Shown here piece by piece: positions 4,229 to 57,258 of a stretch of 64,000 bases of DNA. A model generated the notes under the pieces. That model saw nothing but the letters and a program-made list of their open reading frames with translations. It had not been told where the DNA came from and ran no database searches. A program made the translations under genes and the position numbers. Within the stretch, counting starts at the first letter, position 1; the number at the start of each line of letters is the position of its first letter. The stretch is from Desulfovibrionales bacterium. GTDB lineage: Bacteria; Desulfobacterota; QYQD01. The stretch covers positions 364,001-428,000 of the forward strand of contig JAQURM010000001.1 in the NCBI GenBank assembly GCA_028715605.1, given 5' to 3'.

Positions 4229-5374
4229 TTAGTTTTTTGAGGTATGACAGACATTACAGCCGCTCAGGGCCGTAGAAAGGGTGGTGCTCTTATAGTCCCA
4301 GCGGATCATCTTGTAATTCGGCGATCCATGGGCACGGTGGCAGGAAAGGCATATAACCATGCTTGTGCTGTCAACGGTCGAAGTCGATGTCGATGGCGTG
4401 GATAAAGCTATTGGAGCGGTAGTTGAGTAAGCATTTGTTCCACTGTTATAGCTGGCGTATTCTGAACCGGCATAGCCACCGCTTACCCCACTAAATGCAA
4501 AATCCGTAGGGTGTCTGAACCACGGCGAAGAAGAACCAACCTGTGTGGAACCTCCGAGATTGGCGTGCCCGTGAAAGTTGCCGTGGCAACTGCCGCATAA
4601 GTAACTGATGCCGTCCGTCGTGGTTCCGGGTGTGGCCCCGCCTTTGTATCCATTGTGATGGGTGGAATCGGCCGTCTGTTCCCATTTATAACCAGTAGCA
4701 TTTAACTCTACACCTGTTATGCCCCTTAGAAACCGGTAGCTTTTACCCACAGTTGAAGCATCTATGGTGCTGTCATCGGTATGATGGCCCCCCTTCATAG
4801 CCTCTACGACGGTGGCAGCCGTTGCACCTTGGGTGCGATCGCCATGACAGCCATACACACCGGCGCAGTTAAGTTGGGTGGCCCATGAGGCCGGCCCGGT
4901 TCCGTAGCCACTGGGCGTGCCGGCGCCGGCCGTGAAACCCGGCGGGGCATCCATCGGCGAGCCTTCCTGAGTCTTAATTCCATACACATTGTGACCATAT
5001 TTATCGCCCGTATTCACCAGCCAGTAAAAATTACCACCCGCCAGGGGGGAGGTAGGAGTCGTACTATTTAAGACTATGGGGATATTGCTTGAACCTACGC
5101 TTACAATGGTATTGGCCGTACTGGAAAAATGACAACCAACGCAGTCATAGGACAGCAGACACGGATTGGGTGTGGTATCCCCTGTCAACCCGCCGCTCCC
5201 GGAAGAATATTCCTGGGCCATGGCCGCGCCGCCCTGGCTGTTGTGCATGGTATGACAGTTGTAACAGACGCCGGTGACCTTGGCGTGGGATAAATTTGGG
5301 ATTACTACGATCAATGTCGCAATATATATAATGATTATTCGTAGTATTTTTACATCATGCCGCTTGAGTTCCAT
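4229..5374 (-). CDS. OmcS-like hexaheme extracellular cytochrome c
   Basis: Secreted multiheme cytochrome of 381 residues if started at ATG 5374; a longer TTG start at 5416 exists but puts 14 extra residues before a normal signal peptide (hydrophobic IIIIYIATLIVVIP, cleavage near SHA). Heme motifs in order: CYNCH (followed by TMHNSQGG), CVGCH, an expanded C-x5-CH (CAGVYGCH), CGSCH (GNFHGH), CLSCH (RAHGS), CNVCH near the C-terminus. The order and flanking residues (xCHTMHNSxGG first, CLSCHRAH fifth) match, from memory, the Geobacter nanowire cytochrome OmcS. It would sit outside the cell and carry electrons to external acceptors; polymerisation is inferred. It is last in a probable operon after a heptaheme cytochrome (82-base gap). 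The expanded third motif recurs in the paralogue at 42.8 kb. Confidence 0.85.
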   Translation of the reverse strand: MELKRHDVKILRIIIIYIATLIVVIPNLSHAKVTGVCYNCHTMHNSQGGAAMAQEYSSGSGGLTGDTTPNPCLLSYDCVGCHFSSTANTIVSVGSSNIPIVLNSTTPTSPLAGGNFYWLVNTGDKYGHNVYGIKTQEGSPMDAPPGFTAGAGTPSGYGTGPASWATQLNCAGVYGCHGDRTQGATAATVVEAMKGGHHTDDSTIDASTVGKSYRFLRGITGVELNATGYKWEQTADSTHHNGYKGGATPGTTTDGISYLCGSCHGNFHGHANLGGSTQVGSSSPWFRHPTDFAFSGVSGGYAGSEYASYNSGTNAYSTTAPIALSTPSTSTSTVDSTSMVICLSCHRAHGSPNYKMIRWDYKSTTLSTALSGCNVCHTSKN

Positions 5375-5456
5375 GGAACGGACCGTCTCTTGAATATTTA
5401 TTTTAAAATTTCCCAAACCCTATATATGGCAACAATCTTGCCATGGTATTCCCTCT

Positions 5457-6635
5457 TTAGATAGGTTTGAACCAGCTTGTGTCGTGTTGATGGCACACAT
5501 AGCACGGATTGGAGCCCTTGTGGCCGCTGTCGATGGTATGACAGCGCTGGCAGACCGTGAACCAGCCGGCTCGATCATTCCAGGTATCAAAGGTCACGAC
5601 GCTTGAGCCGTTTATTTCCTTACGGATGAGCATGCGGTTGGGGCTGCCATGGGTCTCGTGGCAATCAGTACAGGAAAGGACATAATTCTTATCTGCCGTG
5701 TAGGGAGCCTTTCTTTTCGTGGCGTCCATACTGGCATCGGCCTGCCCGTGCGGGGATGTAGTCCAGTTCGGACTCCTGATGTACGGCTGTGCACCGACGG
5801 TTGCGAACTGGGATTTCTGCGAGCTTGTCATCTGACCGGTGCTGTAAGAGGCATTGTGGCAGTCCGTACAAAACGTCACATAATCCGGCATATTGGATCC
5901 GTCCAAGGTAGCCGTACCTTCAGGCTCATAGGTCGTTGCGGAACCTGAAGAGTAAGGGGCCTGATAGACGTAGTTGCTCATCCGTTCGTTCGTGGCGGCG
6001 CCGTACACATTCCAGTCACCGTCATGCGTAGTGGGCCGGGAGAGCGGAGACGTGCCTGCGCTCCCCGACGGGTAGCTATGCCTCTGCGCCTTGTGCGGAT
6101 TGTGGCACCCGGAGCACGGATTCACCTTTGCGTTTGTGGCGCCGAATCCCCACTTGCTCTTCAAAAACGTTCTCACTGCCGTCATCTGGTGCGAAGATCC
6201 CGTGGTGGAGCCGCAGTTTGATTGGGGCACGCCGCCTTCTGTGATAAAGCTGAACGCCTGTGCGATGCTGCTTGGACAGATAAGACTGGTGTCCCCTCCG
6301 AATTTGTAACTGAAGGTGTATTGGTTGGGCATGCCTACCTGGCTGGAACTGCCGGCGTGGCAGCTGAGACAGAGCCCGGTATCCTGATCAGTATACAGGG
6401 TGGTGAAGACCAGCCATTTGTCGGGCCCACCCGTGGGGGCCGGTTCCACACCCTCGATACTGGCATGCATCTCGTGGCAGTGGGCGCAGTGCCCCTTGGT
6501 ATAGACGGAGGACGTGCTGCTTCGGTTTACACCATAAGAGGTATTCCCGTGGGCTGAATCAAGATAAGTCCCGGCATATACCGGAGTTGTGGTCAAGAAG
6601 ATACATATTGCAAGTGTGATTAAGGTATCTTTCAT
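5457..6635 (-). CDS. Heptaheme secreted cytochrome c
   Basis: 392 residues with a signal peptide (MKDTLITLAICIFLTTTPVYAG). Seven CxxCH motifs: CAHCH (EMHAS), CLSCH, CSGCH (NPHKAQRHSYP), CTDCH, CTDCH (ETHGSPNRMLIRK), CQRCH, CYVCH. The first and fifth motifs carry the MH and THGSPN followers that also occur in the OmcS-like neighbour, so the two are distant relatives with different heme counts. It probably acts in the periplasm or outside the cell in electron export. It lies between an NHL propeller gene and the OmcS-like gene in one direction. A GCCGATAA sequence (a sigma-28 -10 box) lies on this strand at 6687-6680, 44 bases before the start, but its -35 region is poor. Precise partner unknown. 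Confidence 0.85.
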   Translation of the reverse strand: MKDTLITLAICIFLTTTPVYAGTYLDSAHGNTSYGVNRSSTSSVYTKGHCAHCHEMHASIEGVEPAPTGGPDKWLVFTTLYTDQDTGLCLSCHAGSSSQVGMPNQYTFSYKFGGDTSLICPSSIAQAFSFITEGGVPQSNCGSTTGSSHQMTAVRTFLKSKWGFGATNAKVNPCSGCHNPHKAQRHSYPSGSAGTSPLSRPTTHDGDWNVYGAATNERMSNYVYQAPYSSGSATTYEPEGTATLDGSNMPDYVTFCTDCHNASYSTGQMTSSQKSQFATVGAQPYIRSPNWTTSPHGQADASMDATKRKAPYTADKNYVLSCTDCHETHGSPNRMLIRKEINGSSVVTFDTWNDRAGWFTVCQRCHTIDSGHKGSNPCYVCHQHDTSWFKPI

Positions 6636-6814
6636 CTGATTAGATAGAGCCCCTCAGAGTTTGAACCTTACCATATATTTTATCGGCAGATTGTGCCTAT
6701 AACATTAGTTTTAAAAATGTTTTTCCCAAATCCATTTGAACCGGTCATTGCTTTTTGCCTTGAGCCTTCCGGCTTTCAGCTTTGAGCTTTGAACTATGAG
6801 CTATCACCCATCTC

Positions 6815-18635: not shown

Positions 18636-21032
18636 ATGACCATTAAAAGAAAGCTTTTCCTCTTGGTAGCCCTGCTCCTCGTGGCCGTGGCCGGGGTGGG
18701 TACGGTGGGCTTTTTTGCCGTGCGCATGGTAAGCGGCAAAATCTACTATCTGACCCGGGAGTCGTCACCCCTCCAGGTAAAGATGGTCAATCTCCAGCAG
18801 GGGTTTGAAAAGGTGGCGGCCAACTTTACGCAGATGGCCCTGACTACTTCAGCAGCGGAACTTGCCGCGATTCGTAAGGATACGGATAAGGCATTATCCC
18901 AGGTCAATGCCACAGTTCAAGGTCTGACCAAATTAAAGGCGGGTATCGATGAGAAGGTGGTCGAGGACATAGAAAAAGCCTATAAACAATTGACTATTAT
19001 GGGCGAAGAAAGGCTGCAATGTATGAATAAGGTGGCCGCGGCCAATGAGCAGCTCCGGTCGGGCATTGCCGGGGTGGTCGGGGAGGTCGGAAGGCTCGAT
19101 GCCGCCATGCAAAGAATGCAAAAGGATAGTTATGCCTCGGTTGAAAAATCCAAAGAGGCGAGCCTGAAGGCCAATACCCTCATTAAGCGAATGCTGGTAA
19201 TTCAAGAAAGGTTAAGCAGCGTCAAGACATTGATTATGCAGGTAGATATGATATTCAATCGCTTCAAGCTGAACCCGCTTAAAGATAAGATGCGGGCTGA
19301 GGTGGATAGGATGCGGGCTGAGGCAGACGGCATGGAAATGGCCATTGGAAAGGGTGGATTGGCCGGTCAGATAAAGGAATTCGTTGAGGAAATAGAAAAG
19401 GGATTTTCAGGGGATGCCGGACTCCTCGCCACCCGAGCCAGCATAATCGCTGATCCAACGTCTGATGCGCTCAGCCAGGCGTATGAGAAAAAAAGCGGAG
19501 AGATGACAAAGAAAATTGAGGGGCTCGGCAACAAACTTGCCGGCGAAATAGATAAATTAGATCTGGTTGTTCCCCAGGAAAACCAGAAGATGGGCAACTC
19601 CATTCGTCTGGTTACCTCGGTAGGGCAGATATCAGGTGCCAGCGCAAATATAGCCATTCTGGCCCGAACCATAGAAAGTACCTCCAAACAGATTATGCTG
19701 GCCGGTTCTGCTGACGAGGCAGGCAATCTGAGGACCAGGCTGGAGGGACAGTTTGCGGCAGTGGCGAGAGAGCTGGGCGGTATTAGAAACGGCCTTGGTT
19801 CCATAAGGGCCGGGGCTCAGGCGGCAACGGTAAAGAATGTTGAATCGGCTTTTGCCGGCATGCGGGGGTTATTGTTGAGCAAAGACGGCATCCTGGATCA
19901 GATCTTAAAGAATCTGGCCACCCAGGCCCGTTCTGCCCAGATATTCAGCGAAGCGAAAAAGTTGATTGAAAGGATTGGCCAGGCCAGCGCCGAGAAGACG
20001 CGCTCGGCTGAAGCCGGCCAGGAGAAGGCGGTGGAGGCCGTGGAAAAGGTGGCAGCCATGACCACTACGGCCTTGGCCATTGCCGGTATCATCTCCATAG
20101 CTTTTGGCATTATTGTGGGCGGCTGGATCAGCCGGTCCATTAATACCTATTTAGAAAGGGTTATTTCCGGATTGAACGATTCTTCGGGACAGGTTTCCTC
20201 TGCCGCCGGAGAGGTCTCCGGGGCCTCGCAACAACTGGCCGAAGGGGCCTCGGAACAGGCCGCAGCCCTGGAACAGACCTCGGCCTCTCTCGAAGAGATA
20301 ACGAGCATGACCAAGCAAAATGCGGACAATGCCCAACAGGCCAACATGCTCATGGAAGAGTCAAAGCAGGTCGTAGAAAAGGCCAATAGTTCCATGTCCC
20401 AGATGAGTACTTCTATGCACAACATTTCTGCTGCAGGTGAGGAAATCGGTAAAATTATCAAGACCATCGATGGCATCGCTTTTCAGACCAACCTCCTGGC
20501 GCTCAATGCCGCAGTCGAGGCGGCGCGGGCCGGCGAGGCCGGTATGGGATTTGCCGTAGTGGCGGAGGAGGTAAGGAATCTGGCTAAGCGGGCGGCCGAA
20601 GCGGCAAAGAATACCAGCAACCTGATTGAAGATGTGATTCAAAAGATAGCAGAGGGTTCCGGCCTGGTCAGCGGTACGGAAGCTGACTTCCGGGAAGTGG
20701 CTGCCAGCGCCAAAAAGGTCGCTAATCTGGTGGCAGAGATAGCGGCCGCCTCCCGCGAGCAAAGCCAGGGAATGGACCAGATAAGCAATGCCTTGGGTCA
20801 AATGGACCAGGTAGTGCAAAAGAATGCGGCCAATGCCGAGGAGACCGCTTCTGCCTCCGAAGAATTGAACGCCCAGGCCCATACCCTGCAAGATTATGTA
20901 GATCAACTGTCCGAATTGGTTGGTGGAAAGAATATAAAGAGCATGGAGGGGGGCGAAGAGCCGGACGATTCTCCCAGGGCATCATTTGTTAATAAATTGC
21001 CCGGCATACGCAAGCTGAATTCCGGCGCATGA
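18636..21032 (+). CDS. Methyl-accepting chemotaxis protein with long periplasmic helical domain
   Basis: 798 residues. TM1 at residues ~7-28 ([20 protein letters not shown]), a ~440-residue periplasmic domain predicted mostly helical without recognisable Cache or PAS signature, TM2 near 471-497 ([20 protein letters not shown]). The cytoplasmic part runs straight from TM2 into the methylation/signalling helices; no standard HAMP is visible. The hairpin tip has the CheA/CheW-binding sequence [20 protein letters not shown]. No C-terminal NWETF-type pentapeptide. It lies between two periplasmic binding protein genes with no permeases, so ligand-loaded binding proteins may be its input. No CxxCH motif here, unlike the receptor at 61.4 kb. 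Confidence 0.93.
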
Positions 21033-42279: not shown

Positions 42280-42457
42280 TACTTTATCCGCACCACCTAA
42301 TTAGTTTCCATCCGGAACCCCAGGGATCCCGGATGAGCAATCAGCTATCAGCGTTCAGCTTAATGCGTCGTTTGTCTTAGATTTTTGCCGGCAGATGAAA
42401 ACTGACGGCTATAACCATACATAAAAGAGTCTCATTCTGTCAATTAATCAAAAATAT

Positions 42458-42484
42458 TAAAGTCTTTTGATATCTTGCCGATAA
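42458..42484 (+). promoter_or_regulatory. Sigma-28 (FliA) promoter 1
   Basis: TAAAGTCT at 42458-42465, 11-base spacer, GCCGATAA at 42477-42484. Fits the consensus TAAAGTTT-N11-GCCGATAA at 15 of 16 positions. Confidence 0.85.
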
Positions 42485-42524
42485 ACATAACAAGTGAAAA
42501 AGTGTCCGGAAAAGAATAAAAAAT

Positions 42525-42551
42525 TAAAGTTTTCTCCATAGTTGCCGATAA
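42525..42551 (+). promoter_or_regulatory. Sigma-28 (FliA) promoter 2
   Basis: TAAAGTTT at 42525-42532, 11-base spacer, GCCGATAA at 42544-42551; all 16 consensus positions match. Same spacing as promoter 1, 67 bases downstream of it. Confidence 0.9.
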
Positions 42552-42836
42552 ATGAATTAAAGGTGAGAACTATCCCCTTTGGCCTCGAATTCACAAGGAC
42601 GTGGGGGGCAATAAGGCAGGTGAGACTGAAGAGACAAGGGAAAGTTCCTAAAATTAAAAAATTCCTTGGATTTTAAGAAAGGGAGGGCAGTGACCCACCG
42701 GTGCCCAAGTTGGACGCCATGGTGCCGGAGGCGAGCCCAGTGGCGTAACCGGCCCTTCTCTTTATGGCCAAAAATTAGAAAGGAGGGGATGACGTTGGGT
42801 ACAAATATGAAAAATGTGGAGAAAGGGGTGATAATC

Positions 42837-43934
42837 ATGAGAATGGCAGGTATGTTAAAAACCGGCTGTTTGGCGGTTCTATTGAGCGCATTCCTGGCCT
42901 TGATACCGGTCGGGTATGCCCTGGCAACCGTCACAGGTGCCTGCGTAAACTGCCATACCATGCACAACAGCCAGGGTGGTACGGAAATGCAGTTAAAGGC
43001 TGGAGAGACAGACCCACAGGGAAACCTGGTGCGCGGGACCTGTATCGGTTGTCACGGGAGCGAACCAGCAGGGGCAAACAACATCGTTACCAACATCCCT
43101 CAGGTGTGGCACTCTGCAGCTACTGACCTGGGCGGCGGTAATTTCAAGTACGTCGTAGATAGTGGCGATGCCTACGGACACAACGTCGAGGGCATCACGA
43201 CTGCAGACGCCACATTAGCGAACACCCCCCCAGGCTATGCAGCAGCTATGGATCCTGCAAGCACGGATTACGCTACCGGCAGCCGGCTGACCTGTGGCGG
43301 GCAAAATGGTTGCCATGGCAACCGGGATAATTCCGGCAATTATGCCGGTGTAAGTGGAGCCCACCATGCCAGTGACGCCGTCCTCAAGTTTGGCGGTATC
43401 GTCGAAGGTTCTCAAGGGGCTTCTGTAGCCACCAGTTACCGTTTCCTCTACAAAGTAAAGGGTGGAGAGGACACCGATTGGCAGAACACGGTTGGTGCCG
43501 CTGACCACAATGAGTATAAAGGTGCAATCTATGCCGCCAGAACCACCATGGCCTGGGCGGATGTCAATACCATAAGCGAGCTCTGTGCCGAGTGCCATGG
43601 TAGTTTCCATATGTCAGGCGCTACCGGTATTGGTACAGCCAGCCCCTGGATAAGACATCCAACTGATGTGCTCATACCCAATAGCGGTGAATATGCAAGC
43701 ATCTCGACTACTTATAATCCTACGGTTCCCGTGGCCAGGGCTACGATCCCCAATGCGGCGAGCGGTACGGTAGCTGCCGGTACTGATGTCGTCATGTGCC
43801 TCTCCTGTCACCGGGCCCATGCCAGCGGCTATGCGGATATTCTGAGATGGGACTACAGTGGTATGATAGCGAACGGAGGCGCTAATACCACCGGATGCTT
43901 TGTCTGCCATACCACCAAGGATAACGGTAGTTAA
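42837..43934 (+). CDS. OmcS-like hexaheme extracellular cytochrome c (sigma-28 driven)
   Basis: 365 residues from ATG 42837; in-frame ATG at 42807 and TTG at 42795 (6 bases after AGGAGGGG) are alternatives that only lengthen the signal-peptide n-region. Hydrophobic core LKTGCLAVLLSAFLALIP, cleavage near ALA. Heme motifs: CVNCH (TMHNSQGG), CIGCH, expanded C-x5-CH (CGGQNGCHGN), CAECH (GSFH, SPWIRHP), CLSCH (RAHASGY), CFVCH (TTK). Spacer residues between motifs resemble the 4.2-kb and 56.1-kb paralogues (GDAYGHNVEGI, NEYKGAIYA). Expected to be secreted and to act in extracellular electron transfer, probably as a filament subunit. A strong terminator follows the stop, so it is transcribed alone. 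Confidence 0.88.
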   Translation: MRMAGMLKTGCLAVLLSAFLALIPVGYALATVTGACVNCHTMHNSQGGTEMQLKAGETDPQGNLVRGTCIGCHGSEPAGANNIVTNIPQVWHSAATDLGGGNFKYVVDSGDAYGHNVEGITTADATLANTPPGYAAAMDPASTDYATGSRLTCGGQNGCHGNRDNSGNYAGVSGAHHASDAVLKFGGIVEGSQGASVATSYRFLYKVKGGEDTDWQNTVGAADHNEYKGAIYAARTTMAWADVNTISELCAECHGSFHMSGATGIGTASPWIRHPTDVLIPNSGEYASISTTYNPTVPVARATIPNAASGTVAAGTDVVMCLSCHRAHASGYADILRWDYSGMIANGGANTTGCFVCHTTKDNGS

Positions 43935-43960
43935 TATTGGTTGTAAAGAATTAATCCGGG

Positions 43961-43996
43961 CGGGATGGGTATAGATACCCATCCCGTCTTGTTTTT
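43961..43996 (+). terminator. Intrinsic terminator of OmcS-like gene
   Basis: CGGGATGGGT / ACCCATCCCG stem, 6-base loop, tail TCTTGTTTTT. Confidence 0.93.
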
Positions 43997-56088: not shown

Positions 56089-57258
56089 CTAATTCTTGCT
56101 TGTGTGACACTGGAAGCAGCCGCCGGTTCCTCCACCGCTGGCCTGGATAGTCGCATAGTCCCATCGAAGCATGTCAGGATAGGGGCTGGCGTGGGCCTTA
56201 TGGCAGGAGAGACACATAACCATGTCCGTACCGATGGTTACCGTGTCACTGACCGCGACGAGTGCGGGGCGGGCTACGGGGACGATGGGGTCATACGTCG
56301 CGGTGCCGCCACCGGCACCGAAAGCGTCGGCGTATTCACCGGACGCCGGTATCCTGCGATCTACGGGGTGTCGTATCCAGGCCCCTCCCTGTCTCTTGAT
56401 GTGGAAATTTCCGTGACAACCGCAGCAGAAGGCTGTGGCCGTGTTGGCCTGTATGGAGACAAACCCGCCAGTCCCGCTGGCGACCTGCTTACCGAGGTAC
56501 TCATTATGGTCATTGGCACTGCTGGTGTATTGCCAGTCGCCGTCCTCTATGCCTGCAACTCCGTACTGGTAACCGCTGAAATGGCCCGACAGAAAGCGGT
56601 ACCATCCCTCTGCAGCGCTATCCGCCACCCCATCCGTAACACTGGTATGATGCCAACTCTTGATTTGACTGAACTTGTTGAAGCCTGATACCATATGACA
56701 GCCGGTGCAGCCGGATCGCCCGTTCAGGTAGCCATGAATGGGCTCGAATTCGGAAGAAGCCTGAAAAGGAAGATGGAGATTGCTATGGCAAACGTTTGTG
56801 CCACAGCCGCCGCCTACGTACGCTTCCCCGGGGGCGCTCATCAGGACGTCATCGGGATTGGTTGAGAATATGTTATGCCCGTTTGCGTCATTTACCGTTA
56901 CCCAATAAAAATTCCCGCCGGCGAGGCCTTGACTGCCGTAGGAGGGCTGGCCGGTATTATTGACAATAGGAGCGCCGGTTACCGGATCTTTCCAGGTCGC
57001 GCCGTCGGTGGCTGAATGGCAGCCCACACAGTCGCCTACCAGGAGTTGACCGTAGGGGCCTCCGGGTTCTACCGGAAGCCCCCCCTGACTGTTGTGCATG
57101 GTGTGGCAGTTGGCACATGGTCCTGTTACTCTGGCGGAAGCGGCGGGTGGGAGCGATAGGATCAGGACAAGGGAAAAGATTAAAGTCGCCGCGAATGTGA
57201 GTGCCTTTTGCCGGGGTATCTTGATGACCGATTTCGTCCGGTCCTTGGGCATGACCAT
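56089..57258 (-). CDS. OmcS-like heptaheme extracellular cytochrome c
   Basis: 389 residues. Signal peptide (ALTFAATLIFSLVLILSLPP, ending ASA). Heme motifs: CANCH (TMHNSQGG), CVGCH, expanded C-x4-CH (CGTNVCH), an additional CTGCH (MVSGFNKF), CCGCH (GNFHIKRQGGAWIRHP), CLSCH (KAHASPYPDMLRW), CFQCH (TSKN). The added CTGCH makes seven motifs against six in the two paralogues, and the third motif has one residue less than the C-x5-CH there. AGGAG lies 11 bases before ATG 57258. It is convergent with prfC and starts a separate transcript. Confidence 0.88.
   Translation of the reverse strand: MVMPKDRTKSVIKIPRQKALTFAATLIFSLVLILSLPPAASARVTGPCANCHTMHNSQGGLPVEPGGPYGQLLVGDCVGCHSATDGATWKDPVTGAPIVNNTGQPSYGSQGLAGGNFYWVTVNDANGHNIFSTNPDDVLMSAPGEAYVGGGCGTNVCHSNLHLPFQASSEFEPIHGYLNGRSGCTGCHMVSGFNKFSQIKSWHHTSVTDGVADSAAEGWYRFLSGHFSGYQYGVAGIEDGDWQYTSSANDHNEYLGKQVASGTGGFVSIQANTATAFCCGCHGNFHIKRQGGAWIRHPVDRRIPASGEYADAFGAGGGTATYDPIVPVARPALVAVSDTVTIGTDMVMCLSCHKAHASPYPDMLRWDYATIQASGGGTGGCFQCHTSKN

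Follow-up and report, generated by a model that had tools for sequence, protein, structure and literature searches.

FliA (sigma-28) class 3 promoters, found on genes for flagellin, FlgM and chemoreceptors, have the bipartite consensus TAAAGTTT-N11-GCCGATAA, and in E. coli many FliA-bound sites are intragenic. A tandem pair of sites sharing this consensus was identified in a 64-kb stretch of the genome of an uncultured Desulfovibrionales bacterium (the window), in front of a gene that differs from the class 3 genes in that its product is an OmcS-like multiheme cytochrome and no motility protein. In Desulfovibrio ferrophilus, a sulfate-reducer, FliA promoters were predicted by motif on flagellar and chemotaxis genes, motility was abolished by fliA deletion and Fe(III) oxide reduction by the fliA mutant was as in the wild type; the FliA-dependent genes described there are flagellar and chemotaxis genes, whereas the window gene encodes a cytochrome (PMC9769857). 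The timing control of conductive cytochrome filaments is poorly understood; in Geobacter, cyclic-dinucleotide riboswitches are among the known regulators, as in the Geobacter sulfurreducens omcS-omcT operon with its GEMM-I riboswitch sensing cGAMP and c-di-GMP (PMC6456294). Levels of c-di-GMP alter Geobacter cytochrome expression (PMC12285248), and RpoN is predicted to stand above fliA in G. sulfurreducens (PMC2725144). Like G. sulfurreducens omcST, the window locus combines an OmcS-like multiheme cytochrome with a cyclic-dinucleotide riboswitch, here a candidate; unlike omcST, it has an aptamer candidate of the class-II-GAG type together with a sigma-28-type promoter. No FliA control of omcS was found reported for Geobacter. 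A first, sequence-only reading of the window knew of no such promoter pair on a nanowire cytochrome, and our literature search, with most subscription journals outside its coverage, likewise found no sigma-28 promoter on an OmcS-like gene.

The window sites were scored against a FliA consensus with -35 TAAAGTTT, -10 GCCGATAA and an 11-bp spacer, giving 16 scored positions. Promoter 1 (42458..42484, + strand), TAAAGTCT-N11-GCCGATAA with the full site TAAAGTCTTTTGATATCTTGCCGATAA, matches at 15/16, and promoter 2 (42525..42551, + strand), TAAAGTTT-N11-GCCGATAA with the full site TAAAGTTTTCTCCATAGTTGCCGATAA, at 16/16; transcription from promoter 2 would start near 42558. The distance between their starts is 67 bp. 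The sequence-only reading had described two near-perfect sigma-28 sites at this distance and judged a chance pair very unlikely, and both statements held. Matches to TAAAGTNT-N11-GCCGATAA in the whole genome (2,555,435 bases) were confined to the window pair, with 0 matches for its reversed control, and none of 20000 first-order Markov sequences (510 nt, built from the leader) had a site at 15/16, the expectation for exact sites being far below one. The search of the genome for further sites, proposed in the same reading, gave 69 matches to the looser TAAAGNNT-N11-GCCGATAA at up to two mismatches against 42 for the reversed control; at up to one mismatch there were 15 sites in the window genome, and 13 against 3 control matches in the sister genome G001. 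Within the window, only three sites reached at least 14/16 (both strands, spacer 11-12), namely the promoter pair and a site at 6707-6680 on the - strand.

The genome encodes one clear FliA (250 bits against a cutoff of 189.6), a gene on whose presence the sequence-only reading had made its proposal depend, located directly after flhF/flhG-like genes named by reading their translations. Five more sigma-like proteins matched the FliA model under its cutoff. Also encoded are FlgM (E 7e-21), two flagellin-type proteins and ten chemoreceptor-domain matches. The flgM operon is preceded by the sigma-28 motif TAAAGTTATTAAAGGAACTGCCGATAA (14/16), identical in G001, and one chemoreceptor (MCP) gene, L183, by TAATGTTTTTTTAAGTATGCCGATAA (15/16, spacer 10), with weaker sites (13/16) upstream of the chemoreceptor genes L180 and L184. 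The site upstream of the flagellin gene is weak (12/16, spacer 12) and several genome matches fall within genes, so that a motif match alone is no proof of a promoter. Tandem pairs of this pattern were found in 3 of 395 genomes of the phylum, and in a distant genome of the same phylum (G252) a related tandem pair stands before flagellin. Because fliA is present, flgM and chemoreceptor genes carry the motif, the sites are conserved across the genus and the G252 pair precedes flagellin, a resemblance of the window sites to real sigma-28 promoters is supported.

The gene behind the pair (42837..43934, + strand; alternative in-frame starts at 42789, 42795 and 42807) encodes a 365-aa OmcS-like c-type cytochrome with a signal peptide, probably hexaheme. 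Its earlier description as OmcS-like was borne out by comparison with solved structures: OmcS (6ef8/6nef) was the top PDB match with the single sequence (E 2.4e-5) and, as the closest solved structure, was matched by profile across nearly the whole length (E 2.5e-21). Five CXXCH motifs occur in the family, together with one conserved C-x5-CH motif (C153/C159-H160; window 43293-43316), consistent with six haems. The third haem site, of unusual haem-attachment spacing, is C-x5-CH in 14/15 family members (alignment A2) and CVGCH in the homologue L045. An AlphaFold model of the family alignment (pLDDT 34) was discarded, as were the labels DmsE, NrfH and MtrC for the cytochromes, whose scores were under cutoffs. 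An intrinsic terminator-like hairpin (43958..43989, + strand) lies 3' of the gene, and the transcription unit is probably monocistronic. No good + strand sigma-70 site was found in the leader, the lone candidate (42807-42835) scoring 9/12, which is chance level.

A DNA search with the leader showed it to be present in G001, G002 and G003, and thus with the window genome (G000) in four of the five genomes of the genus, and absent from the fifth, G004. In the four-genome alignment, identity 5' of site 1 is about 30% and conservation begins at the promoter block. Site 1 is TAAAGTTT-N11-GCCGATAC and site 2 TAAAGTTT-N11-ACCGATAA in G001-G003, both 15/16. The untranslated leader from promoter 2 to the aptamer candidate (42552..42673, + strand) is moderately conserved, with no Rfam match, and positions 42709-42789 are identical across the four species but for one base in G003. 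In the G003 locus (L163, G003:C150), aligned to window 42440-43934, the leader is 90% identical and the cytochrome protein 50%, indicating that the gene body diverged or was replaced behind a retained leader. The G002 orthologue (L164:3642-4860) has a frameshift near residue 320 and is either a pseudogene or affected by a sequencing error.

The flanks of promoters 1 and 2 are partly alike beyond the core motifs, so a tandem duplication is possible and the pair perhaps does not represent two independent chance events. We regard it as possible, if on balance doubtful, that the pair is such a duplication with one copy in use and nothing gained beyond dosage, a reading to which the service of paralogues by single sites also lends weight; it concerns the pair only and is compatible with our main explanation. 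Against it, matches of 15-16/16 and the exact 67-bp spacing were kept in four species while spacers and flanks changed, which suggests selection on both promoters.

Between the promoter pair and the cytochrome gene, conservation of the leader is highest over a candidate riboswitch aptamer of the c-di-GMP-II-GAG type (RF03169; 42674..42763, + strand; 38.8 bits, E 1.4e-4). RF03169 was the best-matching Rfam family, the match spanning the full model (1-86), and in a genome-wide search the candidate was its single match (39.4 bits, E 3.6e-6); the score nevertheless falls about one bit short of the gathering score of 40, and the aptamer is therefore treated as a strong candidate, one that may act in the manner of this family, and not filed as an RF03169 member. 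Three GGDEF genes are present in the genome. A Shine-Dalgarno-like sequence, AAGGAGGGG (42780..42788, + strand), is invariant in the four species. In the predicted ligand-free fold of the G000 leader, the 3' strand of aptamer stem P1, CCCUUCUCUUU, pairs with this sequence, whose predicted accessibility is 0.04 in the free RNA against 0.80 with the aptamer forced; c-di-GMP would accordingly be an ON signal in G000, the modelled effect being small in G001-G003. Sequestration of the Shine-Dalgarno-like sequence was rejected as a conserved on-switch, being clear in G000 only and weak or absent in G001-G003, and a pairing of the start-codon region with the aptamer loop in G000 was weakened by a mismatch in G001-G003. 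The whole leader folds no better than shuffled sequences (z -0.9 and 0.08), and Rfam matches to mir-4484, MIR815, YrlA and similar families, far under gathering, were attributed to chance.

The genome contains ten OmcS-like genes, of which six have a sigma-28-like site before the gene or operon. The gene at C8:112825 has an upstream site of 15/16, and two identical copies on C12 have sites of 14/16 (spacer 12), a type retained in G001 (two copies) and G003; the gene at C1:325358 has a 13/16 site, and this type is present in all five species. The remaining site in the window, TAATGTTATAGGCACAATCTGCCGATAA (6680..6707, - strand; 14/16, spacer 12; identical in G001), stands 45 bp before a two-gene operon on the same strand for a multiheme cytochrome (5457..6635) and a second OmcS-like cytochrome (4229..5416). 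The third OmcS-like gene of the window (C1:420092; 56092..57177, - strand) has no sigma-28-like site and provides an internal control, and none was found for C4:160654 or the pair C1:283097/284238. A further 15/16 site precedes an OmcS-like gene in G003 (C246). Since 13/16 is also scored by about 1.5% of the 510-nt Markov leaders, lone sites of this score are weak evidence, supported here by conservation. Judged from these motifs, the apparent sigma-28 link is one that extends beyond the window gene to further OmcS-like genes. The C12 copies (G000:C12:5046-6551 and 18874-20379; L150, L151) are identical over the 1506-nt gene and the promoter and lie 13.8 kb apart, reflecting a recent duplication or an assembly repeat. 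The leader of the C8 gene (L149:3090-3250) contains, after its 15/16 site, a 7-bp closing stem, GUGAUGC/GCAUCAC; it has no Rfam match and could be another structured RNA.

Among the retrieved loci, few of the 101 OmcS-like genes that include an N-terminus have a sigma-28-like site. L046 and L047 were left out of the outgroup count, their contigs matching the genus genomes G004 and G003, respectively. Outside the genus no OmcS-like homologue had a site of at least 14/16 except L021 (Desulfobacterales MAG CR_Bin_073), with TAAAGTTTTCAGGTAAATATTCCGATAA (15/16, spacer 12); L024 (Deltaproteobacteria MAG B60_G16) has TAAAGGCTTCCGTCAAATGTTCCGATAA (13/16). Both sites lie about 5-12 nt before confidently identified c-di-GMP-I riboswitches (58.9 and 68.7 bits), and the order of parts in L021:5484-5611 and L024:7088-7211 is sigma-28-like site, c-di-GMP-I riboswitch, terminator and OmcS-like gene. 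The 5' part of each aptamer is predicted to pair with the 5' arm of the terminator, the duplex (-23.4 and -27.3 kcal/mol) being more stable than the terminator (-15.5 and -16.0 kcal/mol), from which c-di-GMP is predicted to be an OFF signal. In the other scanned loci, which did not include L052 and L081, no c-di-GMP riboswitch scored above gathering. The two outgroup loci thus share part order and gene family with the window but differ from it in their single promoter, GEMM-I aptamer and terminator/antiterminator platform. Since their leaders are alike, they were counted as one origin. That this part order recurs around an aptamer of an unrelated class argues more strongly than any other observation that the promoter and the switch form a unit.

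These loci also bear on the reading that the sigma-28 promoters are functional and that the leader RNA is no c-di-GMP switch, having another conserved role or being a degenerate aptamer. The sub-gathering RF03169 scores (38.8-39.4 bits), the lack of covariation in a near-invariant aptamer and a folding energy no better than that of shuffles would fit such a reading, which we nonetheless consider unlikely given the genome-wide E of 3.6e-6 for a sole match, the very strong conservation exactly over the aptamer and Shine-Dalgarno-like sequence, the c-di-GMP-I riboswitches in the equivalent place in L021 and L024 and the cyclic-dinucleotide riboswitch of G. sulfurreducens omcST (PMC6456294). Gating of the window cytochrome by c-di-GMP is likely on these grounds. 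A reading of the sites as coincidental or neutral matches, or as serving another sigma factor, with the gene driven by an unseen housekeeping or sigma-54 promoter, is very improbable: the flagellin gene's own site is weak, some genome matches are intragenic and five sub-cutoff proteins resemble FliA, but exact sites are expected far less than once, the leader offers no good + strand sigma-70 site (42807-42835 being at chance level), conservation begins at the promoter sites and the motif recurs at paralogues and in other lineages.

The most likely reading of the motifs is a sigma-28 regulon that also takes in OmcS-like cytochromes, with c-di-GMP acting as a gate. The promoter pair would be read by FliA to give one monocistronic mRNA for the OmcS-like cytochrome, the flagellar late regulon being extended genus-wide to several OmcS-like genes. 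Both predicted transcripts would start 5' of the c-di-GMP-II-type aptamer, whose P1 strand could alternatively pair with the Shine-Dalgarno-like sequence. On completion of the hook, FliA would be freed from FlgM and the cytochrome mRNA made, and c-di-GMP would then set the amount of cytochrome translated. Taken as a whole, this explanation seems to us probable; FliA binding, start sites, ligand binding, switch sign, secretion and filament formation are its inferred elements. The sequence-only reading had proposed that an extracellular filament cytochrome is made with the flagellar late genes. Its sigma-28 promoters are supported by our analysis; given the riboswitch candidate in the leader, plain co-expression of the cytochrome with those genes is improbable. 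For the wider proposition, in which OmcS-like cytochromes of the nanowire type make up a separate branch of the sigma-28 flagellar regulon, gated after transcription has begun by two unrelated c-di-GMP riboswitch classes across lineages, we see the chances as even.

With apparent sigma-28 promoters and a predicted c-di-GMP-sensing RNA before the same gene, extracellular electron transfer and swimming appear to be firmly wired to one another. Direct transcription from a sigma-28 promoter would couple filament production to the moment when the flagellar hook is complete; if true, this is a simple way for a motile cell seeking a mineral or a partner to have its electron conduit made beforehand, and nanowire expression is predicted to be set jointly by c-di-GMP and FlgM. 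Under the wider proposition with riboswitch gating, the electron-transfer filament would be deployed only during a defined phase of the passage from swimming to attachment.

Two further arrangements of sigma-28-like sites were observed. At L046, L047 and L200 of the genus, a site of the 15/16 type lies near a tandem OmcS-like pair and is directed away from it, with no clear gene behind. A conserved site, TAAAATCTTAGCCCAGGATGCCGATAA, stands 54 bp upstream of an adenylate/guanylate cyclase gene in two species (L005:1501-1582 and L204).
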